A DNA stretch of 20,515 nt from a virus. The DNA lies in the IMG/VR virus record IMGVR_UViG_3300042564_004256, positions 1 through 20,515 of that record. The stretch is one strand, 5' to 3'. The position numbers and the translations under genes were made by a program. Below, piece after piece: positions 3,750 to 19,523 of this stretch. The first letter of the stretch is position 1. Every line of letters begins with the position of its first letter. A model generated the notes under the pieces. That model did no database searches. It was not told the origin of the DNA and worked only from the letters and a program-made list of their open reading frames with translations.

Positions 3750-4148
3750 TTAACTAATCTCAGTGCGTCCGTCACCAATGTCACGGGTGTGTACATAACC
3801 GCCTGCTGAGTTACGCATGGCTTGATCCTGTTCCCATGTTTCCATCACAACATGTCTGCACACATTCTGGAACCAGCGATCCACAATGTCTGAGTCTGCG
3901 TCTGTGGGTTTCATCATGTAGCCGGCCTTGACCAAGCGGGCAATGAATATCTCATTCCAGTCCAGTTCAAATGCACCTTGGTGCAAGTTGTTGGGATCAA
4001 TGTCCATGTTCAAGATAGCCACATACGGTTCGTTGTTTTCTGTGGCCAGTTGTTTGGCAGTTTTCTCAGGCGCCTTGGGCACACGGATAACTTTTTCTGC
4101 TACAGGTTTAGGTTCTGGCTTTTTCTTAAAGCGGTCAAAGAATCCCAT
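3750..4148 (-). CDS. Conserved T4-like phage hypothetical protein, 132 aa
   Basis: Starts at the ATG at 4148, which shares its first base with the queE stop codon (TAATG). The product begins MGFFDRFKKKPEPKP, a basic amphipathic start followed by a Pro/Lys-rich linker to about residue 35. A compact acidic domain follows (NMDIDPNN, FELDWNEIFIARLVKAGY, ADSDIVDRWFQNVCRHVV), and the end reads GDGRTEIS. I recall proteins with the FELDWN...DIVDRWFQ...GDGRTE pattern from T4-like cyanophages, with no known role. The direct coupling to queE is notable but does not by itself imply a shared pathway. Confidence 0.8.
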   Translation of the reverse strand: MGFFDRFKKKPEPKPVAEKVIRVPKAPEKTAKQLATENNEPYVAILNMDIDPNNLHQGAFELDWNEIFIARLVKAGYMMKPTDADSDIVDRWFQNVCRHVVMETWEQDQAMRNSAGGYVHTRDIGDGRTEIS

Positions 4149-4993
4149 TATTTGCCCCACCCATTGCCCCAAAGGTCAACGTGTAATCGTGGACTGTACC
4201 AGTAGCCACGTTTGAGTGCTTCGTCGGCCACATTGATTCTATTGCCATCATACACACTGACCACACCGCCCACAGGCATCACAAACACAGGACCACCAAA
4301 CTCACGCAGTCGATATTCATCCACTGCACGATCCAGTTCGTCAAAGTCTTCAACTTTTTCCACAACAAACTTGAGATATGTAATACCATGTGTCTCATAA
4401 TCCCAAATCACATCAGGCTTGATAGCGTCCGCCCAGGACTCGCCACTGACACTTAATTTTGGACTAACACTAAAAGTAATTTCACCAAACCAGTTGCGCA
4501 AGTAGTCTCCAAACTCTTGACTTAGCTCTTGAGTACCATTGGTCTCAAATGTGATATGTCGCAGTCCACGTTCGGCCAACACATCCAACAGTTCTGGATA
4601 AGCACGTTGCCAACCCAGCAATGGTTCACCACCAGTGATTACTAAATGCACAGGATTGCCATTGGGTTGCAACCAGTTGCCATTGGGCAATAGCTCAGTC
4701 ATTCGGTTCACAAGCTCTTCCACTGTGTATGTGGGACTCAAGTGTTTGAAGTCTGGATGCCAGCTTGCATAACTGTCACAGCCTGTGTTCACCAATGGCA
4801 GTTCTTCAAATGTTTTGTACAATTCCACAGTCTTGGCCACTTCGTCTGCTTCTTTACTCCGCTCTCCTGGTTTGCAACCAAACCCTGAACAGGTAAAGTT
4901 GCAACCAAACATGCGTAAAAATACACTGGGCACACCAACATAGCGTCCTTCGCCTTGTGCTGAATAAAATAATTCTGATACTTTTAATTTCAT
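4148..4993 (-). CDS. queE: QueE, 7-carboxy-7-deazaguanine synthase (radical SAM), 281 aa
   Basis: Converts 6-carboxy-5,6,7,8-tetrahydropterin to 7-carboxy-7-deazaguanine (CDG) using a [4Fe-4S] cluster and S-adenosylmethionine. The QueE N-terminal pattern SELFYSAQGEG at 6-16 is clear. Cysteines lie at 31, 35 and 40 (GCNFTCSGFGCK) and at 72 (GCDSY), and the SAM-binding GGEP is at 121-124, with a FETNGT strand further on. In standard QueE the third cluster Cys sits in a WCDT-type motif. Here the equivalent CDSY comes about 37 residues after Cys35, so an insertion seems to split the motif. The ATG overlaps the SGNH gene stop (ATGA). With FolE and QueD in the same block it would complete the route from GTP to CDG. 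Confidence 0.92.
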   Translation of the reverse strand: MKLKVSELFYSAQGEGRYVGVPSVFLRMFGCNFTCSGFGCKPGERSKEADEVAKTVELYKTFEELPLVNTGCDSYASWHPDFKHLSPTYTVEELVNRMTELLPNGNWLQPNGNPVHLVITGGEPLLGWQRAYPELLDVLAERGLRHITFETNGTQELSQEFGDYLRNWFGEITFSVSPKLSVSGESWADAIKPDVIWDYETHGITYLKFVVEKVEDFDELDRAVDEYRLREFGGPVFVMPVGGVVSVYDGNRINVADEALKRGYWYSPRLHVDLWGNGWGK

Positions 4994-5697
4994 AATCTTG
5001 TTACCTTTGTCATGCCCGACTTGCGGGGATCTTTATTTAGATTGATACTTTGTTCATGCATTTTAACACGAGTTTCTTGTTTTGTCACCCAGCCCGGTAA
5101 TACTGCGTCTAAATAGGCCAAATGCTCGGCTGGACTGGGATGTGGATCGCCATTTCTATTGGGCCAACCAGTTTCGGCAAACAATGTATTATAGTAACTT
5201 GGCAAGATGCTATCTAATACATCACTGTATAATCGTACGGCATCTCTGTGCAAACTGACATGATCATCTGCAGGAGGAGCCACGAGTTCTACCATGCTGA
5301 GAAAGCGCCAGGTCAAACCCGGGCGATTTTCCAACAACGTTTTTACTGCTTTGATGTAGGCAAGATCTCTAATTAAAAATCCCCGCTCATCAATATGTGT
5401 TTTGAGATATTCTTTGTTGAACACGTTGGTTGCAAAATGCGCATTGCCTGGAGTATGCCACCGTCTATCAACATAACGATCTTCGCGATCTAAACTGGTC
5501 CAACAAACCATCACAGTATCACCAGCACCAAATCTATGCCGCTGATCTGCTTCCATTACGCTGTTAAAAATGTAGTGATTGCCAGCGCCGCTTTGACCCC
5601 AGTTTTCAAAATAGTCAAATTCTGGAGCAAGGCAGTCGGCCCAGGTGCTCCAACGGTAGTTGGTAAAACTGCACCCAAACGCAAACAATCTCGACAT
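4990..5697 (-). CDS. SGNH/GDSL-like hydrolase-fold protein, 235 aa (second of three)
   Basis: Visible SGNH blocks: FAFGCSFTNYRW with nucleophile-like Ser10, GQSGAGN at 34-40 in the place of the Gly and Asn blocks, and GDPHPSPAEH near 183-192 carrying the Asp-x-His dyad. No signal peptide is seen, so it should act in the cytoplasm. The ATG shares its A with the stop codon of the radical SAM gene (TGATG), and the 3' end overlaps queE by ATGA, so it is locked between these two radical SAM genes. The C-terminal 35 residues after the His motif are polar and basic. Substrate unknown; acyl ester on a carbohydrate is the family default. Confidence 0.78.
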   Translation of the reverse strand: MSRLFAFGCSFTNYRWSTWADCLAPEFDYFENWGQSGAGNHYIFNSVMEADQRHRFGAGDTVMVCWTSLDREDRYVDRRWHTPGNAHFATNVFNKEYLKTHIDERGFLIRDLAYIKAVKTLLENRPGLTWRFLSMVELVAPPADDHVSLHRDAVRLYSDVLDSILPSYYNTLFAETGWPNRNGDPHPSPAEHLAYLDAVLPGWVTKQETRVKMHEQSINLNKDPRKSGMTKVTRL

Positions 5698-7703
5698 CAG
5701 GCCACTAGTTGTTTTTTCTTTACAGAGAAACTGCCTTGTGCTTTGGCAGCACCTGCGCCTCGACGTGCGCCCTTGGAGTCTCCGCCACTGACGCGATCTA
5801 CTGTGGCCTTGCCAAAGTTTCTGCGTCTTGCAAAGTAAAACAATTCCAAGAATCTGTTGAAGCTCATGGTCTTGTCTTCGGGAAAGTCCAATCGATACAC
5901 AGTAGGTAATTTTTCTAAGGGCTTACTAAAGCTCAAATATTCCCAGATGTTGTAGTCCAACTGCAAGTTCATGGGATACTGATTTCTATCATCATACTTG
6001 ATGTAGTAACTTCTTTGCAGTTTCATCAAGCTGGCCAGTAGATCTGGGGGCAAGTTGTAGCGTTCTAGAAACTGTTCTAGGTGATCATACAACTGTTCCA
6101 CTTGATTTTCCTGGTGCATGTTCATGCTGGTTCTGTGAATGATGTTCCAGCCGTGTATTTCCACACCAATCTTGGGATGATTAATGCGTCCAGTCATCAT
6201 CCAATTGTTGAAGTACATACGGGCTTCAGATTCTTCTTTCTTTACCCATTCATTGGTCATGAAGTGTGCAAATAATTCTTCGTAGTAGTCGTTGTAGCTG
6301 ATGCTCAAGTACTTGTTGATAAAACGTGCAACCAAGGTAGCAAAGCCGTTGATATGAAACGTGGTCTGGAACCAGGCAAATATCTGTGCATCCAGCATCA
6401 CCGGAGTGGGCATGTCTTTGGTGCCTGTAATGACGTCAATGCTTTCTTCAATGTGTTCCACACTGTAGCTGCCAGCAAAATAGTCTGTCACAGGCTGGCT
6501 GGTGATTTTGAATAGTTTTTTCTGCAACAGGTTCATTTCAGCATTTTCCAACAACTGTGCTTGGAATGTTGTGATGCCAGTGTGCTGATTCAATTCGTAC
6601 AGGGCATAGAAGTTTTTCTTCCATGTTTCCAATGTTTCACCAGGCAAGCCCAGGATCAGTTCGGTGTATGCAGGAATGTTGCGTTGATCGCATAACTCAA
6701 ACACTTCGTTGAGCTTGTTCATTTCCATGTTCTTGCGACGAATGTTTTCCAACACATCCAAGTCCAGACTTTGCACACTCAGTGTAAGGCCTTGATTAAA
6801 TCCCTTGGCATCCAACAGTTTCTTTACAATGTCTATGACTTCTTTCTTTTGATTCTTGGCCCAGGCCACACTGAAAGTTCTTGGTGATCCATATTTTTCT
6901 TGACACTCAATGATCTTGTCTGCAATCATGCCGTCACGTTCGGGGTACATGCCAAAGTTGGCATCAGTTATACTGATCCAATCAAAGTTGTGCTGAGCCA
7001 TCCATTCCAGTTCAGCAAACACACGTTCCAGTTTGAACTTCTTGACTTTGTTGTAGGTCAAACTGCCCCAGTCACAAAAGGTACATTGATATGGACAACC
7101 ACGATTGGTTTCCAGGGTGCCTTGCCAGGTCACCTCAGGATGATCAGCAATGAGTTGATCAAATATACCAGACAAGTATGGACTTTCAACTTCTTCAAGA
7201 CTTTCAATGCGCTTGGCTTCTTCGGTTTTTACAGCCTCACCGTTTCTGTTGATCAGCAGGCCGGCCACAGTTTCCCAGTTTTTGGTGTCAAACACTTCCA
7301 ACACACGTTTGAATGTGATTTCGCCTTCGTAACAAATGATCAAATCCATGAACGGATTGTCTCGGAAAATGTTGACGTCTGTGATAGCAGGTTCAGGGCC
7401 ACCAAACAAAATCACTGTGTTGGGATTACGTGCTTTGATCTGCCGGGCAAGTTCATAGTTGTAGCGATGGTTCCAAACATAGGTGCTGAATGCTACCATG
7501 TCATTTTGACACAATCTTTCGGCTGTTTCTTCAATGGCTTCTCTGCGCCACAAAAATTCAGTCACTTTGAAACGTTCACGTATGGCCGGGTCTGCCAAGC
7601 TGTAACTCCATATCACGCCTGCAGAATAAGGCAGATAGTAGGCGTTGAACTCTTTTGGTCCTTGTTGAAAATTTGGTTGTACCCAAGCAATGTTATATGT
7701 CAT
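5697..7703 (-). CDS. B12-binding-type radical SAM protein, 668 aa
   Basis: Layout matches B12-binding-domain radical SAM enzymes. An N-terminal Rossmann-like region (about 1-150) carries VILFGGPEPAIT near 97-107 and YEGE near 125-128, followed by a radical SAM barrel with CxxxCxxC at Cys203, Cys207 and Cys210 (NRGCPYQCTFCDWG). Later segments LGLPGETLETW and SVQSLDLDVLENIRRKN are typical of this superfamily. A large C-terminal region of about 250 residues has no motif I know, and it ends in a Gly/Ala/Lys-rich basic tail. Reactions in the family include methylation of unactivated carbon and other rearrangements. Its place between a glycosyltransferase and the SGNH-queE pair suggests tailoring of a sugar, lipid or base, but the substrate is unknown. 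The only obvious SD-like sequence before the ATG is weak. Confidence 0.85.
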   Translation of the reverse strand: MTYNIAWVQPNFQQGPKEFNAYYLPYSAGVIWSYSLADPAIRERFKVTEFLWRREAIEETAERLCQNDMVAFSTYVWNHRYNYELARQIKARNPNTVILFGGPEPAITDVNIFRDNPFMDLIICYEGEITFKRVLEVFDTKNWETVAGLLINRNGEAVKTEEAKRIESLEEVESPYLSGIFDQLIADHPEVTWQGTLETNRGCPYQCTFCDWGSLTYNKVKKFKLERVFAELEWMAQHNFDWISITDANFGMYPERDGMIADKIIECQEKYGSPRTFSVAWAKNQKKEVIDIVKKLLDAKGFNQGLTLSVQSLDLDVLENIRRKNMEMNKLNEVFELCDQRNIPAYTELILGLPGETLETWKKNFYALYELNQHTGITTFQAQLLENAEMNLLQKKLFKITSQPVTDYFAGSYSVEHIEESIDVITGTKDMPTPVMLDAQIFAWFQTTFHINGFATLVARFINKYLSISYNDYYEELFAHFMTNEWVKKEESEARMYFNNWMMTGRINHPKIGVEIHGWNIIHRTSMNMHQENQVEQLYDHLEQFLERYNLPPDLLASLMKLQRSYYIKYDDRNQYPMNLQLDYNIWEYLSFSKPLEKLPTVYRLDFPEDKTMSFNRFLELFYFARRRNFGKATVDRVSGGDSKGARRGAGAAKAQGSFSVKKKQLVA

Positions 7704-7710
7704 GTCTTAT

Positions 7711-8550
7711 TTACTTGTTTCCAAAATGCACATGCGGATTTGAAAACTGTACCATTTGGCGATTGACATCATTTTTAGCTAATTTTTCCCAGGGATCTTG
7801 TGCGCCCAGCCAGATATTGTTGAAAAAACTCAGATCCATTTGCAAATCATTCAACATATAAGCTGCCAATTTATAGCAATCTTGCTGCCGCAGTGCTATC
7901 TGTGACACACTGTGAAAGTCATTTTCGTCCATGGGACGACCTTCCAGCGATGCACGTTCACGGAACGTGGCATCATTGTTGTTGCCGGTTAGATCTGCAC
8001 GGTCATGCAACACATTCACAGGTATACGCTGCCAGATATCCAGCATGTATGCCTGTTGGCTCAGCCAGCCATCCTGCACACTGTGTGGTGAGATATAGCC
8101 CAACAAATCAAACCACTTTCTGGGAATGATAGGAAAGATGCTGTAGGGATGATCCATGTGAGTATGAAAAGCCAGCAATCGAAATTGTCCTTCGTAACTC
8201 ATGATGGTGGTATCCCAACCTTGAGTTTCCATGTAAGCATCATCATTCCAAATCATCAGCCAACGTGAATCAGTATTTTCTGCCAACTTGTTGTTGTAGA
8301 TGTGTAGTCTGTGATATCCCTGGCGATCAAACACCATGGCCTTGTAGGCCAGTTTTTGCTGATCCATCCAGGGTTGAAGTTCCGTTTTAAAATAATCTTT
8401 GCCAATGACATCATCGCGATCAAACGCAAACATCAACTGTACACGTTCAGGATGGTCGGCCAACTCTATTAGGCTGCGAACACTGCGGCCCAGACTTTCA
8501 GTTCGGCCTCGTGTGGCCAACAACATAGCAATATCATACTTGGGGGTCAT
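7711..8550 (-). CDS. GT-A fold glycosyltransferase-like protein (family 2 type), 279 aa
   Basis: The N-terminus IAMLLATRGRTESLGRSVRSL (7-27) is the usual nucleotide-sugar binding start of GT-A enzymes. AFDRDD near 42-47 comes next, and WNDDAYMETQGWD at 101-113 resembles the metal-binding DxD region. An SVQDGWLSQQ segment further on would fit the acceptor side with its acidic residue. No membrane segment is present. It starts with ATG in an ATGA overlap with the queD stop and ends seven bases before the radical SAM gene. The donor and acceptor are unknown. Candidates are a host surface glycan, a phage structural protein, or a modified DNA base, the last being pure speculation from its place beside queD. 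Confidence 0.82.
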   Translation of the reverse strand: MTPKYDIAMLLATRGRTESLGRSVRSLIELADHPERVQLMFAFDRDDVIGKDYFKTELQPWMDQQKLAYKAMVFDRQGYHRLHIYNNKLAENTDSRWLMIWNDDAYMETQGWDTTIMSYEGQFRLLAFHTHMDHPYSIFPIIPRKWFDLLGYISPHSVQDGWLSQQAYMLDIWQRIPVNVLHDRADLTGNNNDATFRERASLEGRPMDENDFHSVSQIALRQQDCYKLAAYMLNDLQMDLSFFNNIWLGAQDPWEKLAKNDVNRQMVQFSNPHVHFGNK

Positions 8551-9080
8551 GCAAATAAATCCTCATTCCATTCTCTATGGCCTTCTCGGAAAGCCATGTT
8601 ACTTTGTGTTTCACGTACTTCTACGCGGTAGCACCACAAACGTTCTGCTTCGCCCTGTCCCCACATGTCGGGAATATAAACACCGTTGACGTATTTGTAC
8701 AACTGATCTGCAAGACCTTCACAGCCTAGTTTGGGCAATATAGTTAGCTTGGCAATGTTTCTGCGTTGCATTTCCATGTAGAACTCCAATTCAGGATCAT
8801 CTTCTGACACCAACAAGGTGTGATCAAATTGGCTTTCCAACACTGACTTGAGTTCTTTGAGACCACCATAATCAGCAGCCCAATTGCGTGTGTCCAAGTT
8901 GTCTGTGCCAAAGTAGAACTTCATGCTAAAACTATAGCCATGAATCAAATTGCAATGACTGTCTGCCCTCCACTGACGATACGCACATGGAAATGCATCG
9001 TGATATTCTTTGGTACTGGTATATTTGTATTGTCTTGCTGACATCCAGCGGTGACCTACTTGATTTTGATCTTGTGACAT
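8547..9080 (-). CDS. queD: QueD-like 6-carboxytetrahydropterin synthase, 177 aa
   Basis: T-fold enzyme of the PTPS/QueD family, second step of 7-deazaguanine synthesis (dihydroneopterin triphosphate to CPH4). Catalytic landmarks are present: Cys43 followed by HGYSF (SHCNLIHGYS), the Asp86-His87 pair (QFDHTLL), and Glu121 in GCEGLADQL. The usual zinc ligands are altered. The AAHR-type first His position reads CAYRQW and the HGH motif reads HGY, so only one of the three standard His ligands (His47) aligns clearly. Other His residues (27, 42) could compensate. The length exceeds the usual 120-140 aa because of N- and C-terminal additions. The ATG at 9080 follows AGGAG by seven bases and has its own promoter. 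Confidence 0.85.
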   Translation of the reverse strand: MSQDQNQVGHRWMSARQYKYTSTKEYHDAFPCAYRQWRADSHCNLIHGYSFSMKFYFGTDNLDTRNWAADYGGLKELKSVLESQFDHTLLVSEDDPELEFYMEMQRRNIAKLTILPKLGCEGLADQLYKYVNGVYIPDMWGQGEAERLWCYRVEVRETQSNMAFREGHREWNEDLFA

Positions 9081-9089
9081 GCTTTTTCT

Positions 9090-9127: not shown

Positions 9128-9162
9128 GCGGGATGATGCTCAGAGACCGCTGGAAACATTAC

Positions 9163-9564
9163 TTATGTTGGTTGTTGATAGCCGGCTGCTTTGTAGTTGG
9201 CCTGACCTGAGATAACACCTCGTACTCCGCCGACAGGATCAGCGCAATCACCATGACGTCTGGGAATTAAATGCACATGTGGATACATCACAGTTTGGCC
9301 AGCAGCCTGTCCCATGTTGATGCCTACATTGAATGCATTGCACTCGTCTTCCGCAACCATTCTACGACCTTCACGCATGGCAGTTTCAAAACAGTCCATG
9401 ATTACCGCATCTGTGTTGTATTGTGGCACAAACAACAAATGCCCGACAGCAACTGGATAACGATCCCGAAAAACTGCTACATGAAAGTCTGACAGTCTTT
9501 CAACTTCTAAATCCCAAGGTGCTACTCCTGCGGTCTGTGCTTCTTTTAATGTTTCATACTTCAT
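9163..9564 (-). CDS. HIT-family (histidine triad) protein, 133 aa
   Basis: HIT proteins bind nucleotides and hydrolyse or transfer nucleotidyl groups through a His nucleophile. The signature is at 94-100 (YPHVHLIPRRHGD region): His96 is in the nucleophile position and His98 in the last position, while the first His of the triad reads Tyr94. GHLLFVP at 41-47 and FNVGINMGQAAGQ at 78-90 are the usual strand and glycine-rich segments leading into it. The C-terminus (SGQANYKAAGY) is short. The ATG lies within the end of the amidinotransferase gene (11-base overlap), so the two should be made together. The role in this phage is unknown; removal of a nucleotidyl group from an activated intermediate is one option. 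Confidence 0.9.
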   Translation of the reverse strand: MKYETLKEAQTAGVAPWDLEVERLSDFHVAVFRDRYPVAVGHLLFVPQYNTDAVIMDCFETAMREGRRMVAEDECNAFNVGINMGQAAGQTVMYPHVHLIPRRHGDCADPVGGVRGVISGQANYKAAGYQQPT

Positions 9565-10624
9565 TTATTATCTTTCTTCGTTGACCACGTCTTTTTATGT
9601 CTAATGTCACACAGTGTATGCCGGCGTACCAAAATTTGTTGTGTCTAAATTCACTGTAGTGACATGTTATACCATGTTGTTTTAAATGTGCAAATAACTC
9701 TGGTCGATAAGATCCGAAAATAATATTATTGGAATCTACCACCAGCACGTTCAAATCAAAGTTGGTAACTTGTACATAGCCTTTGGCTTCATCCAGCAAA
9801 CCGTGTATGTTCTGCAAACTGTTGCTCAACACAGTACGAGCAGGTTGTGTTGATTGATTCACAGGTAGATACTGCTGTACACATATCATGTTTTTATCAC
9901 GCAAAACTTTGGGAACAAATTCTGGATCTAGGCAGATTACTGTGTTGTCATCTATCATCAAAAACCCATGATCAATATGACCCCAGTTTTTTTGTGTGGT
10001 ATCATAATTAGCAACCACAGTGTCAGGCGGCAAGTTTCTTTGCATCCATTCCAGTCCCAAGGCAGTGCCAGGACCGGCAGTGTTGGTAATCAATGCATCG
10101 CCGCACTTGAACATGGTTGCTGTGTGCCACAACACACGTTCGTGCAATATTTTTTTATAGACTGTTTCGCCTTGCTGTGTCCAGTCTACATCATTGGGCA
10201 TGTCAAACAGGATTGGTGCAGGTTGGCTAAGCCAATTGTGTCCTTTTTTGAATAGACTGCAGAAAATTTTATAGTATGACAAGCTGTCAATGTACCTGTC
10301 AGGCATGCTGGTAAATGTTTGATACACAGTAGAACCGTATACCAAAAATTGATCTCTAGGCACCACCGGAGCCACTGCACATTTGATTGAAAATGTGGGC
10401 AGTTGGATATTTTGTTGTATGTTTGGGACCAAAGGACGATGAACTGTCACACCAAGTGATTGTAACAATGCCGCCAAACTGTCGAGATCCTGTTTGGTTT
10501 CTTCAAGTATTTGATTGAATGCAGACTGTTTTGCCTCGGGCACATACCAATCCAGTGCATGCACAGCATGACAATCACCTACTATGACTTCTTCCAGCGG
10601 ATCCCAATTGGTCCAAACACTCAC
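9554..10624 (-). CDS. Amidinotransferase-like protein (glycine/inosamine amidinotransferase family), 356 aa
   Basis: Guanidino-group-modifying enzyme fold. NWDPLEEVIVGD at 6-17 is the classic N-terminal signature of arginine:glycine and inosamine-phosphate amidinotransferases. PRD at 89-91, GHID at 215-218 (catalytic His216 and Asp218 candidates) and AGIHCVTLD at 334-342 (nucleophile Cys338) complete the catalytic set. Such enzymes move an amidino group from arginine to an amine. The length agrees with the family. Translation starts at a GTG at 10624 in a GTGA overlap with the upstream gene, and the next gene (HIT) overlaps by 11 bases. The acceptor is unknown; nearby biosynthetic genes suggest an amino-sugar or aminated base. 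A related deiminase activity is not excluded. Confidence 0.87.
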   Translation of the reverse strand: MSVWTNWDPLEEVIVGDCHAVHALDWYVPEAKQSAFNQILEETKQDLDSLAALLQSLGVTVHRPLVPNIQQNIQLPTFSIKCAVAPVVPRDQFLVYGSTVYQTFTSMPDRYIDSLSYYKIFCSLFKKGHNWLSQPAPILFDMPNDVDWTQQGETVYKKILHERVLWHTATMFKCGDALITNTAGPGTALGLEWMQRNLPPDTVVANYDTTQKNWGHIDHGFLMIDDNTVICLDPEFVPKVLRDKNMICVQQYLPVNQSTQPARTVLSNSLQNIHGLLDEAKGYVQVTNFDLNVLVVDSNNIIFGSYRPELFAHLKQHGITCHYSEFRHNKFWYAGIHCVTLDIKRRGQRRKIINEV

Positions 10625-11268: not shown

Positions 11269-11277
11269 AGCAGTTCC

Positions 11278-11498: not shown

Positions 11499-11601
11499 CC
11501 ACTCTATACTGACTTGCAGGATAGTTTTCGTGCAACCATTCCAACAACCCTGGTTCCCAGGGCAATTTAATTTCACCGGTGATGTTTGTAATGTATATCA
11601 T
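11485..11601 (-). CDS. Microprotein of 38 aa coupled to folE
   Basis: A short frame fills the gap between folE and the next gene. Its ATG (11601) forms an ATGA overlap with the folE stop (11598-11600). AGGAG lies 12 bases upstream, and the stop at 11485-11487 lies just before the next SD. The product starts MIYITNITGEIKLPWEPG and ends in YRVVELT, with a Trp-containing helix (LLEWLHENYPAS). No family recognised. Evidence that it is real is the exact packing (overlap at one end, next SD at the other), the plausible composition, and the fact that removing it would leave an unusually large unexplained gap. Confidence 0.6.
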   Translation of the reverse strand: MIYITNITGEIKLPWEPGLLEWLHENYPASQYRVVELT

Positions 11602-12293
11602 CTTGGTGCAAACTCCTGTTGTAATTTGATATTGTCCATGAACTCTTTTTTCACACTGTCGTCCGTTTTAAAGGCACCACGCAACACAGTGGTCTGTGTT
11701 AGGCTGGAGTGTGCCATGATGCCACGATTCTCACAGCAGCCATGCACTGCTTGAATGTAAACACCAACGTCCTGTGATGCGGTTGCGGCCATGATCTCGT
11801 TGGCAATGTCTATGCACAGTTCTTCCTGTAGGGTACCTCGACGGGCACACCACTGTGCAATGCGGGTGTACTTACTAAGTCCGATCAGTTTCTCTGCCGC
11901 AATAATGCCAATATAAGCAACCCCAGCAACGGGTTGGTGATGATGACTACACATACTGCGAAGTTCACTGCGAACCACGAGCATGCCCTCGTAACGGTCT
12001 GCTGAATCATTTGGAAACGCTGTGCAATCGGGTGCTGGTTCATATCTTCCTGCCATTATTTCGTTGTAGTACATCTTGGCCAAGCGTCGAGCTGTGCCTT
12101 TTGAATTGGGATCGTTTTCTCTATCAATCAGCAATGCATCCAACACACCCTCAAACGCCACAGTGGCTTCGTCAATGAGTTTTTCTTTGATGGCATCACT
12201 CATGTAATCGCTGATGTTGTCTCCAGCCCAAAAGCGGCGCCCGCGAGCTGTCATTTGTTCTCTAAGCACTTGTGATAAATTCTTTTCTTGCAT
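11598..12293 (-). CDS. folE: FolE, GTP cyclohydrolase I, 231 aa
   Basis: Opens the GTP imidazole ring to make dihydroneopterin triphosphate, first step of both folate and 7-deazaguanine synthesis. The C-terminal catalytic domain is intact. Zinc ligands are Cys115 and His118 in ELRSMCSHHHQPV (110-122), and Cys186 in AVHGCCENRG (182-191). GLSKYTRIAQWCARR (138-152) is the family core motif, and GTARRLAKM (66-74) precedes it. Length agrees with bacterial type IA enzymes (about 220 aa). Start ATG at 12293 with GGAG five bases upstream. It has its own promoter and is the first gene after the sugar genes, followed by a coupled microprotein. With queD and queE present, deazaguanine supply is a likelier purpose than folate. 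Confidence 0.96.
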   Translation of the reverse strand: MQEKNLSQVLREQMTARGRRFWAGDNISDYMSDAIKEKLIDEATVAFEGVLDALLIDRENDPNSKGTARRLAKMYYNEIMAGRYEPAPDCTAFPNDSADRYEGMLVVRSELRSMCSHHHQPVAGVAYIGIIAAEKLIGLSKYTRIAQWCARRGTLQEELCIDIANEIMAATASQDVGVYIQAVHGCCENRGIMAHSSLTQTTVLRGAFKTDDSVKKEFMDNIKLQQEFAPR

Positions 12294-12302
12294 TGTTACT
12301 CC

Positions 12303-12320: not shown

Positions 12321-12339
12321 ATTTAGATTTACGAGTCAA
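12311..12339 (-). promoter_or_regulatory. Sigma70-like promoter for folE
   Basis: Minus-strand TTGACT (12334-12339) and TACAAT (12311-12316), each five of six to consensus, separated by exactly 17 bases. The -35 overlaps the stop codon of the DegT-like gene. The spacer also carries CTAAATA, which resembles a T4-type late element. The predicted transcript start is a few bases before the folE SD. Confidence 0.7.
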
Positions 12340-12926
12340 CTGACTATGGAAATTTGTCTGCAATCTGGATAAACAACCTCACGTGGTGGTTGACTTTGAT
12401 ATTGACTCAACAGTTCCATGCCACGTTGGGCTTCTTCGATTGTGGGACGATAATGATAGCCTACTTGAAATTCTTGTTGTTTGACCCAAGGGCTTACAGT
12501 TAGATCACGACCGTCATATCTCATGCGCAACAGGGCTTGGTAGGCAGTTTCATTATCCAACAATATGGCACCACCACGACCGATAGGCAAAGGTTTGTCG
12601 TGTCCAAAACTCACACACTGCATCTGCCCGGCTCGATACATATTGGCTTCTAGGCGTCTTGCACTATCCCAAATGCGTGTTTCAACAAACGGGTACTCTC
12701 CCACCCAACGTTGCCATTCATGATCTAAGTATTGATATTTGATGCCCAGTTTGTGCATGGTCATTGGCACACTAACATAGGTATATGGTGTAAACTTACA
12801 TGTTTGGACTTGATCATATCGTAAACACAATTCAATAGCATGGGTACAACAGTCAGTCATCACAGCACGTGATGCACCAGTGAACTGGGCCAGGGCTGTT
12901 TCAAACTCAAGTATCTTTTCGAACAT
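12336..12926 (-). CDS. Short DegT/DnrJ-type PLP aminotransferase-like protein, 196 aa
   Basis: Resembles the large domain of DegT/DnrJ/EryC1/StrS sugar aminotransferases. The N-terminus has FETALAQFTGASRAVMTDCCTHAIEL (TGA.. AV...G/C T.AL pattern). IWDSAR near 85-90 stands where the family has its EDAA-type Asp, and VSFGHDKPLPIGRGGAILLDN (105-125) matches the SFHxxK...GEGG block with Lys111 as the PLP lysine. Family members are about 370 aa, so roughly half is missing, chiefly inter-motif segments and the C-terminal domain. No frameshift is apparent and the frame is clean, so it is a compact version, not an obvious wreck. It overlaps the epimerase by 20 bases. It could make an amino sugar or act as a PLP-binding partner. 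Confidence 0.75.
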   Translation of the reverse strand: MFEKILEFETALAQFTGASRAVMTDCCTHAIELCLRYDQVQTCKFTPYTYVSVPMTMHKLGIKYQYLDHEWQRWVGEYPFVETRIWDSARRLEANMYRAGQMQCVSFGHDKPLPIGRGGAILLDNETAYQALLRMRYDGRDLTVSPWVKQQEFQVGYHYRPTIEEAQRGMELLSQYQSQPPREVVYPDCRQISIVS

Positions 12927-13866
12927 ACCAGTTCCAGGCGTGTTGGATCATGTGGTCCAATTCAAATTGTCTCCAACCCTCACCAACACGGCCAAATTTG
13001 GCAGCACTTGCTGTGAGCACCGCAGGATCTCCTGGTCTAGCCGCACCCATCACAACTTTCAATTTCTTTCCAGTTATGCGTTCGGCCGCGGCAATGATTT
13101 CTCTATTGCTGGTTCCGTTGTTGGAGCCTAGATTGTATACACCTGATGGAATCTTCTCATCTAGAGCCATGACATGTGCTCGAGCAATGTCTTCCACATG
13201 CACATAGTCACGCACACAAGTGCCATCTGGTGTGGCAAAGTCTACACCGTTTAATGTAAATTCTGCATCATCTCTAATGGCACCCAACACACGAGCAAAG
13301 ATGTGTGTGGCATCTTCAGTTTGTCCGTGTCTGGTTTGACTATCAGCCCCACAGGCATTGAAATAACGAAATGCCACATAATCCAAATTGTAGGCTGTGT
13401 GATATGCTGATAGAATTTTTTCTACCATGAGTTTGCTGTCACCGTAAGGTGATATGGGTTCACAAGGATCCACTTCATGGCATGGAGTCATAATAGGCTC
13501 GCCATACACTGCGGCACTGCTACTGAAAATAACTCTGGTCTTGGGCATGCTTCTGCGTACTTGATCCAACAGTGTGAGTGTGTTAACCACATTGTTTTCA
13601 AAGTAACGACCTGGATGCCGGATGCTTGGCCCAACCAAGCTGGTGGCGGCACAGTGAACAATAGCACTAGGCTCGTGTATCAACAGTTTAACCAAGGCAT
13701 CTTTGTCAGAAAAATCTCGTTCAATGTATTCATGAAAGATTGATTTTAATTGTTTGGGGCACTTGGCTTTGTCAATGCCCACCACACGATGTCCAGCATC
13801 GGCCAACATCAAGGCAGTTTGACCGCCAATGTATCCGGCTGCTCCGGTTACTATAACTGTTTTCAT
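12907..13866 (-). CDS. galE: NAD-dependent UDP-sugar 4-epimerase, GalE-like, 319 aa
   Basis: Extended short-chain dehydrogenase that interconverts UDP-glucose/UDP-galactose or their N-acetyl forms. NAD-binding GAAGYIG is at 8-14, FSSSAAVYGEP at 114-124, and the catalytic Tyr141-xxx-Lys145 lies in SPYGDSK. RYFNACGAD and GTCVRDYVHVEDIARAH are the usual GalE segments for UDP-sugar binding. Length fits the family (about 330 aa). The ATG overlaps the SGNH gene stop (ATGA), with GGAG upstream. It would supply a sugar for the two glycosyltransferases. The exact sugar cannot be read from sequence, and other UDP-sugar epimerases share these motifs. Confidence 0.9.
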   Translation of the reverse strand: MKTVIVTGAAGYIGGQTALMLADAGHRVVGIDKAKCPKQLKSIFHEYIERDFSDKDALVKLLIHEPSAIVHCAATSLVGPSIRHPGRYFENNVVNTLTLLDQVRRSMPKTRVIFSSSAAVYGEPIMTPCHEVDPCEPISPYGDSKLMVEKILSAYHTAYNLDYVAFRYFNACGADSQTRHGQTEDATHIFARVLGAIRDDAEFTLNGVDFATPDGTCVRDYVHVEDIARAHVMALDEKIPSGVYNLGSNNGTSNREIIAAAERITGKKLKVVMGAARPGDPAVLTASAAKFGRVGEGWRQFELDHMIQHAWNWYVRKDT

Positions 13867-14636
13867 TTTAAATATTCTCCAATTTCGTTTTTTAACATTT
13901 TGTACAACACTTCATGACCTAATCGAGTTGGATGAAAGCTGATTGGATTGACCAGTTGTAAGTCTACCAGAGCATCCAATCTAGCAGTGTCCAAAGACCA
14001 TGTACTCAAATGATACTTTGAATCAGGCACAACATGACCTTGTTGTATCAACATTTGTGACAGCAAATCTCTTGGTTGTTTGCTATTGTAGATGAAATTT
14101 TTCAATGTGTCAACTTGATAATCGTGATGATTAAAAGTATCAAACCAAAAATTCTGTATGCCGTGGCCATGAAAATATTCATCCCAATATTTTATTGCCA
14201 TAGACAACTGCTGTACTTCATGTTCGTGATTGTAGTTGGCTATCCAAGACTTGGCCTGGGGGGTCGAGTCTCCAGAGTATATTTCTTCAAAATGATTCCT
14301 TGCAATATCAAAATATTCAGTTCTAGCAGTGCTGGTTATTCCCCAAAGCACTGTGACGGTGGACCATTGTTTTTTTAGTTTTTCAACTTGATCTAGAGAA
14401 AAAAACTCCTTGGCATGCCGAAACTGCTGTTGATTGCTGGAACCCATCACAGCATGGTTGTGCTCTGCACATTGATAATCGGCTGCAAGACGCCGCCTAA
14501 AAGTCAGTGCAGTACTGTCTTCTCGATGTACAATTGCTTCATACTGTTTTTTTGACATACCTGGTTGATATTGAACCCCTACTCCAAAGGTCCAACTACA
14601 ACCAAAGGTAACCAATAGTCTTGACTGTGTTTTCAC
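13863..14636 (-). CDS. SGNH/GDSL-like hydrolase-fold protein, 257 aa (third of three)
   Basis: LVTFGCSWTFGVGV at 8-21 carries the nucleophile-like Ser14. GSSN at 65-68 is the Gly/Asn oxyanion block, and FHPTRLGHE with His235 is the C-terminal His block. A SVTVLWGITSTAR-type strand around 90-105 fits the central sheet. Translation starts with GTG at 14636, overlapping the glycosyltransferase stop (GTGA), so it is coupled. It is longer than, and diverged from, the two SGNH-like proteins at 2532 and 4990. No signal peptide. Probably an esterase or acyl-transfer enzyme on sugars, given its place between a glycosyltransferase and a UDP-sugar epimerase. Confidence 0.78.
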   Translation of the reverse strand: MKTQSRLLVTFGCSWTFGVGVQYQPGMSKKQYEAIVHREDSTALTFRRRLAADYQCAEHNHAVMGSSNQQQFRHAKEFFSLDQVEKLKKQWSTVTVLWGITSTARTEYFDIARNHFEEIYSGDSTPQAKSWIANYNHEHEVQQLSMAIKYWDEYFHGHGIQNFWFDTFNHHDYQVDTLKNFIYNSKQPRDLLSQMLIQQGHVVPDSKYHLSTWSLDTARLDALVDLQLVNPISFHPTRLGHEVLYKMLKNEIGEYLK

Positions 14637-15835
14637 ATGGCAATCTTTACTACGTGATATTTGGCTTCAGCCACATGGTCACGGTATCTATTGCTCGCCC
14701 TATTCCAATGCTCACCATGACCAAGCAGTATATCAACCACACGGTCAACAGTGCCATTGTTCCAGTCAGATATGAGACCCATGTTGTGATGAGGTTCTTG
14801 CAGGAGATTTTGCATCTTGTGATATGCATCATCAATGCTCCACGGAATGTACAGTCTGTTGGGATCGTTGGCAAAGGTTTCGGGGAATGACCGGTATGCC
14901 GGATATAACACATTGCAGCCAATAGTGTCAGCCTCACTGACCGTATTGCTGACCCAATCTTGCAAAGCACAGTTGAACAAAACTCTAGTGTTGTTGAGAT
15001 GATCATAGTATTCATTCTTGGTGATGTTGTCGTAGATTTTCAACTTGCCGGCTGCTTCCATAGCTCTGGCACGTGTCACATACTCTGGATTGTTGCTACG
15101 CAATGGCCCACCTGAGTAAATGGCAAACTCGCAGGGCTCACTAGTAAGTTCACCATACATTTCAATCAAGTCCATGAAGAAGCCAGGCTGCTTTTCTTGA
15201 TCAAAACGTGCGGCAAACCCCACGCGGCGCGGACGATCTGCAAATGGTCGAATATTGTCGCTACCACCAATGCGTTCCAGTACCTCTTCTTTGCCAAATG
15301 CCAAGCCCGAGATGTTGTAGATTGGAGCAGTCCAACCTGCAATGCGCATGTGTGCAACCATTTCTTCGTTTGTGGCCAGCACGCCTGTGACAAAGTGATT
15401 GACCATCTTTTCATATGTGCTCATCCATCCGGCCATGCCCCACACATGCACAAAGTCATCGGGGTCAATGGCTTGTGCTAGACAGCGCACATAAATGCGA
15501 GGACGCTGTTCTGCAGGAACCTGGTCCATGATGTATGGCAAACTCTCAATGCCTGGCTGAAACATGTCTTCAAAATAGATCACATCTTCTGCTGTTACTT
15601 CACCTTGTTGCATGAGTCTGACTAAGTTCATCATCTGGCTCATGCCAAAGTAACTGCGTCCGTGTGCATCCAGCACTTGTCCCACAACAATCTTTTGACT
15701 GTTGTCTAGGGTCAAGCCCGGCACATAAACCACATCAAGACCTCGACGTTCAAACACACGTCGATTCCACTCAGTCAGTTGCAGTGTGTAACGGGCCTCA
15801 TAACTTTCAAGGCCCATGTAGTATAGTTTTCTCAT
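14633..15835 (-). CDS. GT-B fold glycosyltransferase-like protein, 400 aa
   Basis: Two-domain layout of GT4-type enzymes. The N-terminal half (1-195) is the acceptor-binding domain. After a Pro-rich hinge, VGFAARFDQEKQPGFFMDLI (205-224) is the usual start of the donor domain, with FAIYSGG at 237-243. NTVSEADTIGCNVLYPAYRSF (297-317) sits where GT-B enzymes hold the E-x7-E nucleotide-sugar motif. No membrane segments. The ATG overlaps the preceding small gene (ATGA). It leads the sugar group of genes: glycosyltransferase, SGNH, epimerase, DegT-like. T4-like cyanophages often carry such enzymes, and their acceptors are generally unknown. A modified DNA base as acceptor is possible (T4 glucosylates its DNA) but there is no direct evidence. 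Confidence 0.85.
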   Translation of the reverse strand: MRKLYYMGLESYEARYTLQLTEWNRRVFERRGLDVVYVPGLTLDNSQKIVVGQVLDAHGRSYFGMSQMMNLVRLMQQGEVTAEDVIYFEDMFQPGIESLPYIMDQVPAEQRPRIYVRCLAQAIDPDDFVHVWGMAGWMSTYEKMVNHFVTGVLATNEEMVAHMRIAGWTAPIYNISGLAFGKEEVLERIGGSDNIRPFADRPRRVGFAARFDQEKQPGFFMDLIEMYGELTSEPCEFAIYSGGPLRSNNPEYVTRARAMEAAGKLKIYDNITKNEYYDHLNNTRVLFNCALQDWVSNTVSEADTIGCNVLYPAYRSFPETFANDPNRLYIPWSIDDAYHKMQNLLQEPHHNMGLISDWNNGTVDRVVDILLGHGEHWNRASNRYRDHVAEAKYHVVKIAM

Positions 15836-16056
15836 GCGCGATGTCCTGCAAAGCGACGAGTGTCCTCATCCCACATGTTTTTGGCATACTTGCCAGCATG
15901 CCACTTGCTGAACTGTTGCCAGGCATAGGTTTTGAAGTTGTACAGATCCGCTTCGTTGTAGCGGTATCCATAGTCCTGGCAAAATTCCAGATACACTTCA
16001 AGATCGTCTTGGATCTCACGTACCTTGGGGTTGGGTTTGAATGTGGGTCTTGCCAT
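15832..16056 (-). CDS. Small basic hypothetical protein, 74 aa
   Basis: Start chosen at the ATG at 16056 because AAGGAG lies six bases upstream; an in-frame ATG at 16077 would precede this ribosome-binding site and lie inside the upstream gene. The product (MARPTFKPNPKVREIQDDLE...) is rich in Tyr, Trp, Lys and Arg, with helix-like segments QDDLEVYLEFCQDYGYRYNE and FKTYAWQQFSKW. It ends RRFAGHRA. Possibly a small nucleic-acid or protein-binding factor; I recognise no family. The stop overlaps the glycosyltransferase ATG. Confidence 0.75.
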   Translation of the reverse strand: MARPTFKPNPKVREIQDDLEVYLEFCQDYGYRYNEADLYNFKTYAWQQFSKWHAGKYAKNMWDEDTRRFAGHRA

Positions 16057-16066
16057 GTTGTTCTCC

Positions 16067-16510
16067 TTAGATGACAATATTGTTGAGGGGTCTAGTGATT
16101 TCGTATTTGATCAGTGCGCCGTTTTCTCCGTCTTCGGAGACTTCGATCCACACCGCTCGACTGGGATAGCGACTTGCTATTTGTATATATAGGTCGTCTG
16201 CCATCATCTCACAACTTTTGTAGTCTAGTTGGAGAGTTCCACTGCGGTAGAGATTTTCGAGCCAGCGTTTGAATTGGATGAATTCAATGTCGCGATCATT
16301 GTGTACAACATCAATCCACACCCGGAAATGAAAGATGTGACGATGAGGATTGGCAAGAAACGAAACATCATATTCATCACCTGTGGCCAGTGCGGGATCT
16401 GTGGCAGCCGCAGGATATCTGTGCATGCCTTCCTTTTGAAATGTAACCCATATTTTTTTCTGTGCATGTTGCATCACTCGGTCTACCACTTCACGTTCTG
16501 CTTGATTCAT
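16067..16510 (-). CDS. Conserved phage protein resembling a divergent T-fold (PTPS/QueD-like) enzyme, 147 aa
   Basis: Known to me only as a conserved hypothetical of T4-like cyanophages, but the order of blocks recalls PTPS/QueD. MHRYPAAATDP has His30. NPHRHIFHFRVWIDV (54-68) has His56-x-His58, like the HGHN strand. RDIEFIQFKRWLENLY (73-88) resembles the MVMDFxxLK strand-helix. YKSCEMMADDLYIQI (97-111) resembles the T/S-x-E-x-x-A helix with Glu101, and VWIEVSEDGENGALIKYE resembles the final VxVxET...A.Y strands. The PTPS catalytic Cys between the first and second His blocks is not seen. The three His are placed as a zinc triad would be. Activity is unproven; a T-fold structural or accessory role is possible. 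It overlaps the nuclease-like gene by ATGA. Confidence 0.72.
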   Translation of the reverse strand: MNQAEREVVDRVMQHAQKKIWVTFQKEGMHRYPAAATDPALATGDEYDVSFLANPHRHIFHFRVWIDVVHNDRDIEFIQFKRWLENLYRSGTLQLDYKSCEMMADDLYIQIASRYPSRAVWIEVSEDGENGALIKYEITRPLNNIVI

Positions 16511-17058: not shown

Positions 17059-17059
17059 T

Positions 17060-17368
17060 TTAAGATTTCAAACTTTCAAATGTTACAATCTTGCCCAAGG
17101 CATCACCAAGATTTTCATCTGGATGCACAATGTGCAGTTCACAGTGATGATGATCCTTGCGTTCATCGTATCTGTTGATCTCCACCAGTACACCACCATT
17201 GGCACGATACACAGTAAAGTTCATTCTATGCCGACTGCTGCCAATACTTGCAGATTCCTTCATCCCTATACTGAGACCACGCTCTGCACGATCTACTGAC
17301 ACTTGTGTATCATCGCGGTTTCTAAGATACTTGGCACGTTTCAATATCCAGTTGTCTAGCCATTTCAT
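17060..17368 (-). CDS. Conserved T4-like phage hypothetical protein, 102 aa
   Basis: Basic N-terminus (MKWLDNWILKRAKYLRNRD), then a strand-rich domain with MNFTVYRANGGVLVEINRYDE (49-69), CELHIVHPDENLG and a final helix (ALGKIVTFESLKS). Proteins sharing NF.VY.A.GG...E and LHI...E.LG patterns are, from memory, common in marine T4-like phages with no known role. The ATG overlaps the upstream gene stop (ATGA). The small fold might be a protein-interaction domain; nothing points to a catalytic site. Confidence 0.8.
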   Translation of the reverse strand: MKWLDNWILKRAKYLRNRDDTQVSVDRAERGLSIGMKESASIGSSRHRMNFTVYRANGGVLVEINRYDERKDHHHCELHIVHPDENLGDALGKIVTFESLKS

Positions 17369-17862
17369 AATTTACTATCACCTTTGTAATCATCCCATGA
17401 AGTAAATGTCTCACGGCTCATCAGGCTGTGTAGACTGTGGCACCAGACGCCGGGATTGGTAGCGTCAAAGTCCTTGTCATCTATTTTTAACATTGTATTA
17501 TAATTCCACAGTTTTGTATACGGCACACTTACTCGAATCTGCGGAATGAAGTTGCGATAATCACACAATGAACCATCATTGAACTCTTCTACAGCACTGA
17601 TAGGAATGTCCAAAGTGCAAAGATAACCACGTAGCAAAAAGTACGTGATCATGCTTTCCCATTTGCGCCATTCTTCCGGGGTCTTGGGATCAAAACTGTG
17701 ATTGGCGCCAAAGAATATGTGTTCACATTCAAGCATTTTGGCAGCAATGTTATCGATGGACTGTAACCCTACCACAAACAATGTCTTCTTACCAAATGCC
17801 GGAGTGCGTTCTACTTCTGTGCCCGTAAAGAAATCAACGCCTGCATGTCCTGCTCTATTCAT
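17365..17862 (-). CDS. Conserved hypothetical protein coupled to dpdA, 165 aa
   Basis: The ATG is in an ATGA overlap with the end of the DpdA gene. The sequence is soluble and mixed alpha/beta. TLFVVGLQSIDNIAAKMLECEHIFFGANHSFD near 27-58 looks like a Rossmann-type strand-helix-strand. ITYFLLRGYLCTLDIPISAVEEF follows, and a conserved-looking C-terminal part has LKIDDKDFDATNPGVWCHSLHSLM. No catalytic signature that I can name is present. I recall related proteins in T4-like cyanophages. The tight coupling makes a partner or helper of the transglycosylase a reasonable guess, no more. Confidence 0.8.
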   Translation of the reverse strand: MNRAGHAGVDFFTGTEVERTPAFGKKTLFVVGLQSIDNIAAKMLECEHIFFGANHSFDPKTPEEWRKWESMITYFLLRGYLCTLDIPISAVEEFNDGSLCDYRNFIPQIRVSVPYTKLWNYNTMLKIDDKDFDATNPGVWCHSLHSLMSRETFTSWDDYKGDSKL

Positions 17863-19523
17863 GTTGTGGTCCCCAACTTGTCAAGTTTACTAGAATCAAA
17901 ATCTTCTTGTTCCATTTGTTCATATGAAAACAATGCATTGAATTGGGGTTTAGAATTGGTAGTGTTCTTGCCTTTGTTGCCACGTGTGCCAACAATTTGA
18001 TTCCAATAACCAGTCTTACCTGTGTAACCAGTTCGTTCAATCACAGCCATGGCGCTGGCCTTGTCTGGCGCTGAAAAAATTTCTTCTATAATGTTTTCAA
18101 AATACTCGTAGTCGCCGCCGTTGCGTTGCATCATGGCAGGATGTTCTCCTGCATCAAAACGACGATTGGCTTCTTGCACAGCAGTCAAATGCATCCACAC
18201 GTTATGCCCCATGAGCAAAGCATAACTGAAACTGTCCCAGGATGTCTTGCCTTCTTTACCATTTTTGTTGACATCGCCTGGACCATAGATGCAGACATCT
18301 TTCATTGTAAGCATATCGCTGATAGGACTGTCCTGCCAGTTTTTAATATTGCTTGTTTTTGGCAAATCAGCCAACAATCCCACACTCCATTTGCGAGTGT
18401 CTGTGGAATATTTTTTGTCATCCAACACCGGAGCCATACGATACGACCACTTTGAATCATGTTCAAACACATTTTCAAAGTACACCTGACCATTGGCAGT
18501 GGCGAGGAATGGGCTGGCACAATCAAAGGAGATAGTAAAAGACGGGTTAACGTATTTTCTAACTGCCCTTTGAATCACGGTGAGTAGCACAGCCCATTCC
18601 AACTTTGATGTACCCAAAAAGTGCATCCAGTCATGTACACCCTGCTGTAACAGATTGTCATAACGAAGTGCAACCAGTCGAGTCAGTATCAGTTGAACGT
18701 CGCACATGTTCTGTCCGCCCATGGCCCAGCCGTCAAAGTGTGTGGCAGGATACACAGCAGGATCGCAAAACTCTTTCATTTCCTGATACCATGCTTCGGC
18801 ACTGTCGTGACCATCGCCTTGCAACACATTCAAGAATCGGGCGCCACCTTCTTTGACACCTCGACGGTGTGCCATAAAATACAAGTTGTTGTATTTGGTG
18901 GCTGCAACTGCTTCATCCAGTGTGGTAACACCACAGGCCTTGCTGGATTTTTGATCGTGTATGACCCAGGTAGGAATATCAAGAATCATTCCATAGTCTG
19001 CAATGCTGTCTAGCCAACGCAACACTGTGTCACGTTTTTTCTGGGCAGCATCCAGCAACTTCTGATAGTCGGCAGCAGGGTCTTTTTTAATTTTTTTACC
19101 TTTGGCATTGACCACTTCAGTTGGGCCTTGAGCAACCAATGCAGTCATTTTATCTTGCACTGCTTGACTGGTTGGGTCTCGCCACTCGCCCTCCCACAAA
19201 CCCTTGGCAATCTGGAATCCACCAGAGTCGCCAAGTATAAATGTGCCAGATTCACGATTGCGAACCATGTCTTCTGACCAGTCCTGCTTGGTCAAATCCA
19301 AATTGGCATGTCCTGCTGAATACAAACTCCAACGATATGGGAACAGCGCCTTCTGACTGTTGAGCCAGTTCATCTGTTCCATGTCAGTCAACCCTTGTGG
19401 AAACCTTGCAGGATCCACATATGGCTCGTTGCGTTGTTTGCCCACAAACGTGGCATAGAAACCTGATATAGCTGGTAAAAACACAGCATAATCATTTTGC
19501 TTGGCTGTTAAGTTATCTTTCAA
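17859..19523 (-). CDS. dpdA: TGT-like DNA transglycosylase, DpdA family, 554 aa
   Basis: Related to tRNA-guanine transglycosylase; the DpdA branch swaps guanine in DNA for a 7-deazaguanine. TGT-type blocks appear in order: GDSGGFQ at 98-104 with Asp99, MILDIP at 179-184, LNVLQGDGHDS at 231-241 (VQGG block), FDGWAMGG at 263-270 (the TGT DG(Y/F)AIGG block), LGTSK at 303-307, and SFDCASPF at 332-339. The CxCxxC zinc site of tRNA enzymes is not visible. The chain is far longer than a bacterial TGT (about 375 aa), with an inserted Lys-rich helical region at 130-165 and a C-terminal domain of about 200 residues. The start is a TTG at 19523 overlapping the DUF2061 gene by 11 bases. A stop lies five codons upstream and no ATG is near. 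The presence of folE, queD and queE supports a DNA-modifying role. Confidence 0.85.
   Translation of the reverse strand: MKDNLTAKQNDYAVFLPAISGFYATFVGKQRNEPYVDPARFPQGLTDMEQMNWLNSQKALFPYRWSLYSAGHANLDLTKQDWSEDMVRNRESGTFILGDSGGFQIAKGLWEGEWRDPTSQAVQDKMTALVAQGPTEVVNAKGKKIKKDPAADYQKLLDAAQKKRDTVLRWLDSIADYGMILDIPTWVIHDQKSSKACGVTTLDEAVAATKYNNLYFMAHRRGVKEGGARFLNVLQGDGHDSAEAWYQEMKEFCDPAVYPATHFDGWAMGGQNMCDVQLILTRLVALRYDNLLQQGVHDWMHFLGTSKLEWAVLLTVIQRAVRKYVNPSFTISFDCASPFLATANGQVYFENVFEHDSKWSYRMAPVLDDKKYSTDTRKWSVGLLADLPKTSNIKNWQDSPISDMLTMKDVCIYGPGDVNKNGKEGKTSWDSFSYALLMGHNVWMHLTAVQEANRRFDAGEHPAMMQRNGGDYEYFENIIEEIFSAPDKASAMAVIERTGYTGKTGYWNQIVGTRGNKGKNTTNSKPQFNALFSYEQMEQEDFDSSKLDKLGTTT

Follow-up and report, generated by a model that had tools for sequence, protein, structure and literature searches.

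A candidate QueC-independent 7-deazaguanine DNA modification module of large phages joins a QueD-like protein with a predicted glycosyltransferase

Phages 9g, nt-1 and CAjan carry the closest described systems, of the DpdA1 and DpdA2 kinds, in which FolE, QueD and QueE accompany DpdA, a protein related to tRNA-guanine transglycosylases (TGTs); DpdA2 was described in nt-1, whose DNA carries dPreQ0 (PMC6884629). A system missing only QueC was already noted there for phage Bipper (PMC6884629). Here we analyze a 20,515-base stretch of viral DNA, positions 1-20,515 of IMG/VR virus record IMGVR_UViG_3300042564_004256 (the window), which shares FolE, QueD, QueE and a DpdA-like protein with these systems. 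The window type differs from the systems of 9g, nt-1 and CAjan in that it is without full-length QueC or Gat-QueC and adds a QueD-like protein (p147), a predicted glycosyltransferase (GT400) and a protein termed p165. Its DpdA also falls outside PHROG 887 and appears only remotely related to DpdA2. We consider it reasonably probable that large phages use such a locus to modify DNA with a 7-deazaguanine independently of QueC, with p147 and GT400 giving a glycosylated base. All window features located below lie on the minus strand, and the pathway and module genes are spaced by small gaps or overlaps.

Three enzymes would lead from GTP to 7-carboxy-7-deazaguanine (CDG). These are FolE, a GTP cyclohydrolase I (11598-12293; PF01227 E 7.6e-39, phrog_2197 E 9.4e-45), QueD (8547-9080; PF01242 E 2.6e-14, phrog_2389 E 4.5e-35) and QueE, the radical S-adenosylmethionine (SAM) enzyme 7-carboxy-7-deazaguanine synthase (4148-4993; phrog_2076 E 8.8e-53). 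In alignments, the window QueD retains Cys-43 together with two motifs, His-Gly-Tyr and Phe-Asp-His, and Cys-31, Cys-35 and Cys-72 of QueE are invariant in all eight aligned phage QueEs. The Pfam and PHROG matches thus bear out the full route from GTP to CDG that an earlier note on this DNA had claimed; CDG synthesis and transglycosylation are assigned by homology. Across 30 records without full-length QueC (12 selected via the transglycosylase, 3 via GT400 or p165 and 15 via p147), QueE was matched in 29, FolE in 29 and QueD in 27, the last count including a weak match in Ahp1 (E 6e-5). Faecalibacterium phage Roos gave no FolE, QueD or QueE match, though it bears p147. QueF and ArcS were not named by profile scans of 20 window proteins, in which no search was aimed at either, and the QueF profile exceeded its cut-off in none of the 30 records; a QueF match in 9g falls inside that phage's own FolE gene and is a cross-match. 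In each of six large phage records (G004, G008, G009, G011, G021 and G044), the QueE radical-SAM profile had 3-9 matches, of which all except a single one per record were weak, indicating that radical-SAM genes are numerous there.

The window, a fragment of a genome, contains no QueC. A transglycosylase scan of the viral collection found at least 597 of 599 pattern-matched stretches to encode such an enzyme, and the best 80 loci were used; relatives occur in records as long as 354 kb, and the jumbo phage PA5oct is one of them. None of the 26 whole records behind 26 of these best 80 loci, five of which span 225-354 kb, has QueC (PF06508) over the cut-off; a single match (E 8e-4) falls below it. 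IMG/VR records may be fragments, so the isolate genomes carry the weight on this point. The genome records of Pseudomonas phage PA5oct and of Sinorhizobium phage Phosso, which are titled complete, encode the transglycosylase and yielded no QueC; Vibrio phage 2.275.O has both genes. In 39 further records, full-length QueC was found solely in the positive controls 9g and 2.275.O, and in none of the 37 that bear p147. With the QueC of 2.275.O as the query (E <=0.001), 319 of 50,697 annotated phage records were matched. A home-built QueC profile, made from few sequences, had no match in 157 fetched contig loci, and neither Gat-QueC nor full-length QueC was found in the window-type relatives searched. 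A QueC gene just beyond the edge of the window was considered and rejected: since the relatives' records, PA5oct and Phosso are also without it, the edge does not cause the absence. The earlier note's observation that the window lacks QueC is accordingly upheld and reaches further, to the relatives' records and two complete genomes.

A host enzyme could in principle supply the step, with preQ0 or a derivative then being inserted. QueC is widespread among prokaryotes, our search having matched it in 12 of 14 control genomes, and the treatment of partial phage systems by Iyer et al. 2021 suggests that hosts may complement them (PMC7824862). These phages nevertheless encode three enzymes that their hosts also own, and across different phages QueC alone is missing and p147 is present. 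We therefore regard complementation by the host as very unlikely.

The protein p147 (16067-16510), missed in the earlier note, is a QueD-like or 6-pyruvoyltetrahydropterin synthase (PTPS)-like T-fold protein according to its AlphaFold2 fold, residues and co-occurrence. The model (predicted local distance difference test score, pLDDT, 92.5; 37 sequences) has a beta-beta-alpha-alpha-beta-beta arrangement. Foldseek placed E. coli QueD on top (E 8e-5), followed by other QueD/PTPS entries, and VIA matched a PTPS at Z 12.1 (root-mean-square deviation 2.2 over 93 residues); dihydroneopterin aldolases and QueF-like proteins came close, at Z of about 10. The predicted T-fold is well supported, and its placement in the QueD/PTPS subfamily draws on the Foldseek ranking together with sequence alignment. 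Comparison of p147 with QueD in hhalign gave 80%, covering the C-terminal half only; a search against PDB sequences gave four chance-like matches, and a scan of the viral collection with p147 of phage phiST found no relatives. A first reading by eye, which took p147 for a QueF homologue, was rejected, as the fold search ranks QueD/PTPS above QueF-like proteins.

Like E. coli QueD, p147 has the T-fold, the three zinc histidines (H30, H56 and H58 align with them) and the ligand glutamate (E126). It differs in having leucine in place of the catalytic cysteine, Leu-52, which is present in 138 of 138 sequences, and in lacking the Asp-His pair; this stretch of QueD is absent from the six p147 rows aligned with it. 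H30, L52, H56, H58, R73, E76, S99 and E101 are identical in all 138 sequences. All 30 records without full-length QueC carry p147 and neither of the two QueC-bearing controls does. The 15 records chosen through p147 itself carry no weight for this co-occurrence; the 15 chosen otherwise all have it (12 of 12 via DpdA, 3 of 3 via GT400 or p165). At E <=0.01 the protein occurs in 27 of the 50,697 annotated phage records, in about twelve independent lineages by our own grouping. Because the pocket residues are retained, arginines are conserved and the protein is present where QueC is missing, the sequences suggest that p147 acts on CDG. Its fold, residues and co-occurrence make it likely that p147 converts CDG in place of QueC.

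The genes accompanying p147 form a conserved module. At least 6 kb of downstream sequence is available for 41 of the 80 DpdA loci; p147, GT400 and p165 occur together in all 41 and FolE in 39, although some of these loci are near-identical contigs and 41 exceeds the number of independent cases. Among loci fetched via p147, many of them incomplete, 18 of 35 in one set and 40 of 42 in another carry GT400. The two genes are co-oriented in all 120 loci that share them and lie a median of 0-300 bases apart in the three sets. Among isolates, the gene order differs and the gene company is constant. The order is p165-transglycosylase-GT400-p147-QueE, with no QueC, in ACP17, GT400-transglycosylase-p147-QueE in X1 and transglycosylase-p147-GT400 in BUCT-ZZ01. 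PA5oct has DpdA-GT400-p147 with p165 about 28 kb from dpdA, and Phosso has p147-GT400 with FolE and QueE near and DpdA elsewhere. The pathway genes had been described as scattered among sugar genes; beyond that, the interval from DpdA to FolE holds a QueD-like gene and a glycosyltransferase gene that form part of a conserved unit. Stenotrophomonas phage Ps15 offers a comparison: its FolE, QueC, TGT and QueE genes are clustered with QueD elsewhere, and ACP17 is the phage from outside its genus to which it is most clearly, if distantly, related (PMC9025141). Ps15 has QueC at the cluster where ACP17 has p165, GT400 and p147, as if QueC had been exchanged. In X1, the segment L088:7338-8526 just before the p147/GT400 module encodes a PAPS-reductase-like protein (PF01507) and also holds an open reading frame (ORF) with a PIG-L-like motif and no Pfam match.

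GT400 (14633-15835) resembles GT-B/GT4 glycosyltransferases, as supported by a homologue and by residues. The homologue in Xanthomonas phage X1 matches PF00534 (Glycos_transf_1) at E 8e-12, with 45.5 bits against a cut-off of 26.4, and the family profile matches GT-B structures weakly (best E 0.0014). R210, K215 and E301 are invariant in all 119 sequences and are presumably the donor-site Arg, Lys and Glu. The likely activity of GT400 is the transfer of a sugar. A search that started from the ACP17 enzyme found the family in 20 of the 50,697 phage records, 16 of which carry p147; by our grouping it spans about six independent lineages, with 11 Pseudomonas records closely related. The four GT400 phages outside the p147 set are Erwinia phage Ep032, Xanthomonas phage PhiXhv-12, PhiXhv-15 and PhiXhv-16. 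The two of these that were examined, Ep032 and PhiXhv-12, have FolE, QueE and a QueC-family ORF near the glycosyltransferase. PhiXhv-12 (L184:6747-9981) encodes Gat-QueC (by Pfam), then a PIG-L deacetylase and then the GT400-family glycosyltransferase, a row reminiscent of the part of bacillithiol synthesis that handles sugars, here attached to a deazaguanine system. This co-occurrence, with a QueC-family ORF in both Ep032 and PhiXhv-12, suggests that the glycosyltransferase serves the 7-deazaguanine pathway and is not a neighbour by chance.

The partner of GT400 is p165 (17365-17862), assigned by co-occurrence and with its fold unassigned: the p147-centred sets include 44 loci with p165, and 43 of these have GT400 as well. 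Searches of Pfam and PHROG gave no match to p165, a PDB sequence search nothing credible, and no known relative was found.

The 554-residue protein beside p165 (17859-19523, TTG start) is a DpdA-like guanine transglycosylase with a TGT fold and two conserved aspartates. It has no match among Pfam, PHROG, NCBIfam and PADLOC models. Its AlphaFold2 model, built from 31 aligned sequences, has a mean pLDDT of 88.5. All 50 matches listed by VIA-align are TGTs (Z 19.4 to 18.1), the best at Z 19.4 with a root-mean-square deviation of 4.2 over 300 aligned residues, and the single Foldseek match at E <=0.001 is also a TGT (E 2.5e-5). Asp-99 (DSGGFQ) and Asp-334 (FDCAS), which we take to be the catalytic aspartates, are identical in all 125 aligned transglycosylases, the window protein included. 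By its modelled fold the protein is a transglycosylase, so that the TGT-like character claimed for it earlier is confirmed at the level of fold, and its action on DNA is inferred from its kinship.

That kinship would lead to DpdA2 through ACP17. The window-type profile aligns remotely with that of ACP17, X1 and BUCT-ZZ01 (hhalign probability 84%, E 7e-6), and the ACP17 enzyme matches the nt-1 record at its transglycosylase at 35.7% over 59%, a site taken as the published DpdA2 by position and kind. PDB sequence searches with the window-type and ACP17-type profiles gave no match, and phrog_887, the 9g-type DpdA1 family, matched the 9g control and neither the window transglycosylase nor anything in PA5oct and Phosso. 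By sequence, the window transglycosylase is a branch apart from the ACP17 type. Its TGT fold would also suit an enzyme that modifies tRNA and not DNA. Against this, it is so far from cellular TGTs in sequence that neither profiles nor PDB entries match it, and the transglycosylase of ACP17, whose module is of this kind, has a relative in nt-1, a phage with dPreQ0 in its DNA (PMC6884629); for the window protein itself the link is remote. We give a tRNA target next to no credence.

Five proteins of 260-300 residues adjoin p147 in other loci and show TGT-like motifs by eye (L091:9798-10577, L097:9785-10579, L095:9453-10325, L096:9692-10549 and L098:9284-10195). Among them, phrog_887 is matched by the Roos protein (L098) alone; they are perhaps other small DpdA subfamilies.

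The proposed mechanism would run as follows. FolE, QueD and QueE would convert GTP to CDG, and p147 would replace QueC by converting the CDG carboxyl, most simply by decarboxylation to 7-deazaguanine, with another reaction being possible. GT400, probably with p165, would then attach a sugar, either at the base itself or at its side group, and the product would be a glycosylated 7-deazaguanine that shields DNA from nucleases. The sugar might alternatively be placed on an acceptor other than C7-H, on a handle left by p147 or on the carboxyl group of CDG.

The earlier note had proposed that the pathway halts at the carboxy base, with CDG inserted and kept as the final base (dCDG). FolE, QueD and QueE are indeed present where neither full-length QueC nor a QueF match above the cut-off was found. 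dCDG has reportedly been published as a viral base by Cui et al. 2023. The idea was also raised for Bipper in the discussion of that phage (PMC6884629). Such an endpoint leaves the conserved p147 and GT400 without a role; the conservation of p147, GT400 and p165 in the module does not support it, and we judge it improbable. CDG is probably an intermediate, because p147 is present in 30 of 30 records without full-length QueC and GT400 and p165 stand alongside in 41 of 41 loci. A second suggestion, that interleaved enzymes tailor the base, came nearer the mark, although two of the interleaved genes, for the B12 radical-SAM protein and a 356-residue protein, do not keep company with the system (10 and 15 of 84 loci respectively) and were rejected as core tailoring enzymes.

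Another view takes the base to be plain 7-deazaguanine, with p147 being DpdL or its equivalent and GT400 acting off the base. Cui et al. 2023 are said to have published dDG and dCDG as viral bases together with DpdL, a CDG decarboxylase. Decarboxylation to 7-deazaguanine by p147 would agree with this work, the conserved arginines of p147 could hold a carboxylate, and p147 accompanies the CDG route where full-length QueC is missing, Cellulophaga phages without a GT400 match included. By its proposed role p147 is a candidate for DpdL or its equivalent; DpdL is unnamed in the open-licence literature searched. GT400, for its part, accompanies 7-deazaguanine genes in every lineage examined (ACP17, Phosso, PA5oct, X1, BUCT-ZZ01 and PhiXhv-12/Ep032), and in PhiXhv-12 and Ep032 it does so with a QueC-family gene and no p147 match. 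We think a plain 7-deazaguanine base unlikely, while granting it appreciable weight.

Several observations weigh against a joint action of p147 and GT400 that ends in a glycosylated base. Decarboxylation by p147 would leave no obvious acceptor for a sugar at C7, so the two steps fit together poorly unless the sugar is placed elsewhere. The role of p147 is drawn from fold, residues and co-occurrence, and GT400 of the window itself has sub-threshold family matches only (PF13524, E 0.056). The choice of DNA over RNA as the target depends on kinship with DpdA2, remote for the window protein. Since seven p147 phages (phiST, RHph_I1_18, Bakedbeans, Ahp1, D479, MA9V-3 and Roos) gave no GT400 match, the two proteins are separable. 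Finally, partial matches to the QueC family exceed the cut-off in 4 of the 37 p147-bearing records (D479, G032, G029 and G038) and fall below it in two others of the 37, G027 and X1. Seven weak QueC matches were judged by eye from their sequences, PF06508 being the one profile run: L081, L178 and L182 are NAD synthetase-like, L181 is undecided, and L177, L179 and L180 are otherwise PP-loop-like, the C-terminus of L177 (D479) being QueC-like.

A small protein, p81 (15832-16077), lies between p147 and GT400 in the window and occurs in 66 of 84 loci; no homologue was found in the isolate loci searched. A UDP-glucose 4-epimerase-like GalE (12907-13866; TIGR01179, 293 bits, over the cut-off) occurs in 52 of 80 DpdA loci. 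It neighbours a partial, 196-residue DegT-type aminotransferase-like ORF (12336-12926; PF01041 E 4e-13 in two stretches) of the DegT/DnrJ/EryC1 family, which looks shortened against the 360-position model and has related ORFs in 48 of the 80. Together, GalE and the partial DegT ORF might supply the sugar donor. The B12-binding radical-SAM protein (5697-7703) is KedN5-like at 260 bits, below the cut-off of 700, and its frequency marks it as an accessory gene. The 356-residue protein (9554-10624) has phrog_25854, of unassigned function, as its sole match; it is amidinotransferase-like by eye only, with a median identity of 25% among loci. A sliding-clamp-like protein adjoining dpdA (19695-20417; phrog_12062, function unassigned, E 2.4e-31) marks the locus, being present in 79 of the 80 DpdA loci, and its profile matches a Phosso gene annotated as a sliding clamp.

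PA5oct has homologs of DpdA, p147, GT400, p165, FolE, QueD and QueE, and no QueC. A deazaguanine synthesis and incorporation system in this phage has been mentioned, in a passage that names neither the glycosyltransferase nor the QueD-like gene (PMC7824862). Listings of the open-licence literature, to which Cui et al. 2023 does not belong, showed no paper linking p147, GT400 and p165 to deazaguanine systems and none on a glycosylated 7-deazaguanine in phage DNA. The dDG and dCDG systems with DpdL reported by Cui et al. 2023 likewise involve 7-deazaguanine bases other than the preQ0 type and, unlike the window type, are not known to have a glycosyltransferase in the module.

These results point to proteins that are candidates to stand in for QueC in a group of large phages, represented by at least 597 related stretches, and the same module is present in the cultured phages Paride/PA5oct, ACP17 and BUCT-ZZ01. 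We tentatively suggest, at somewhat less than even confidence, that the DNA of such phages contains a glycosylated 7-deazaguanine that is made from CDG by a QueC-free route, using a repurposed QueD and a dedicated glycosyltransferase, a relative of which would serve Gat-QueC systems such as that of PhiXhv-12. If true, a sugar-bearing guanine-type base would be the guanine counterpart of glucosyl-hydroxymethylcytosine. It would add a chemically new class to the armour of phage DNA, and two families of hypothetical proteins would gain testable functions.

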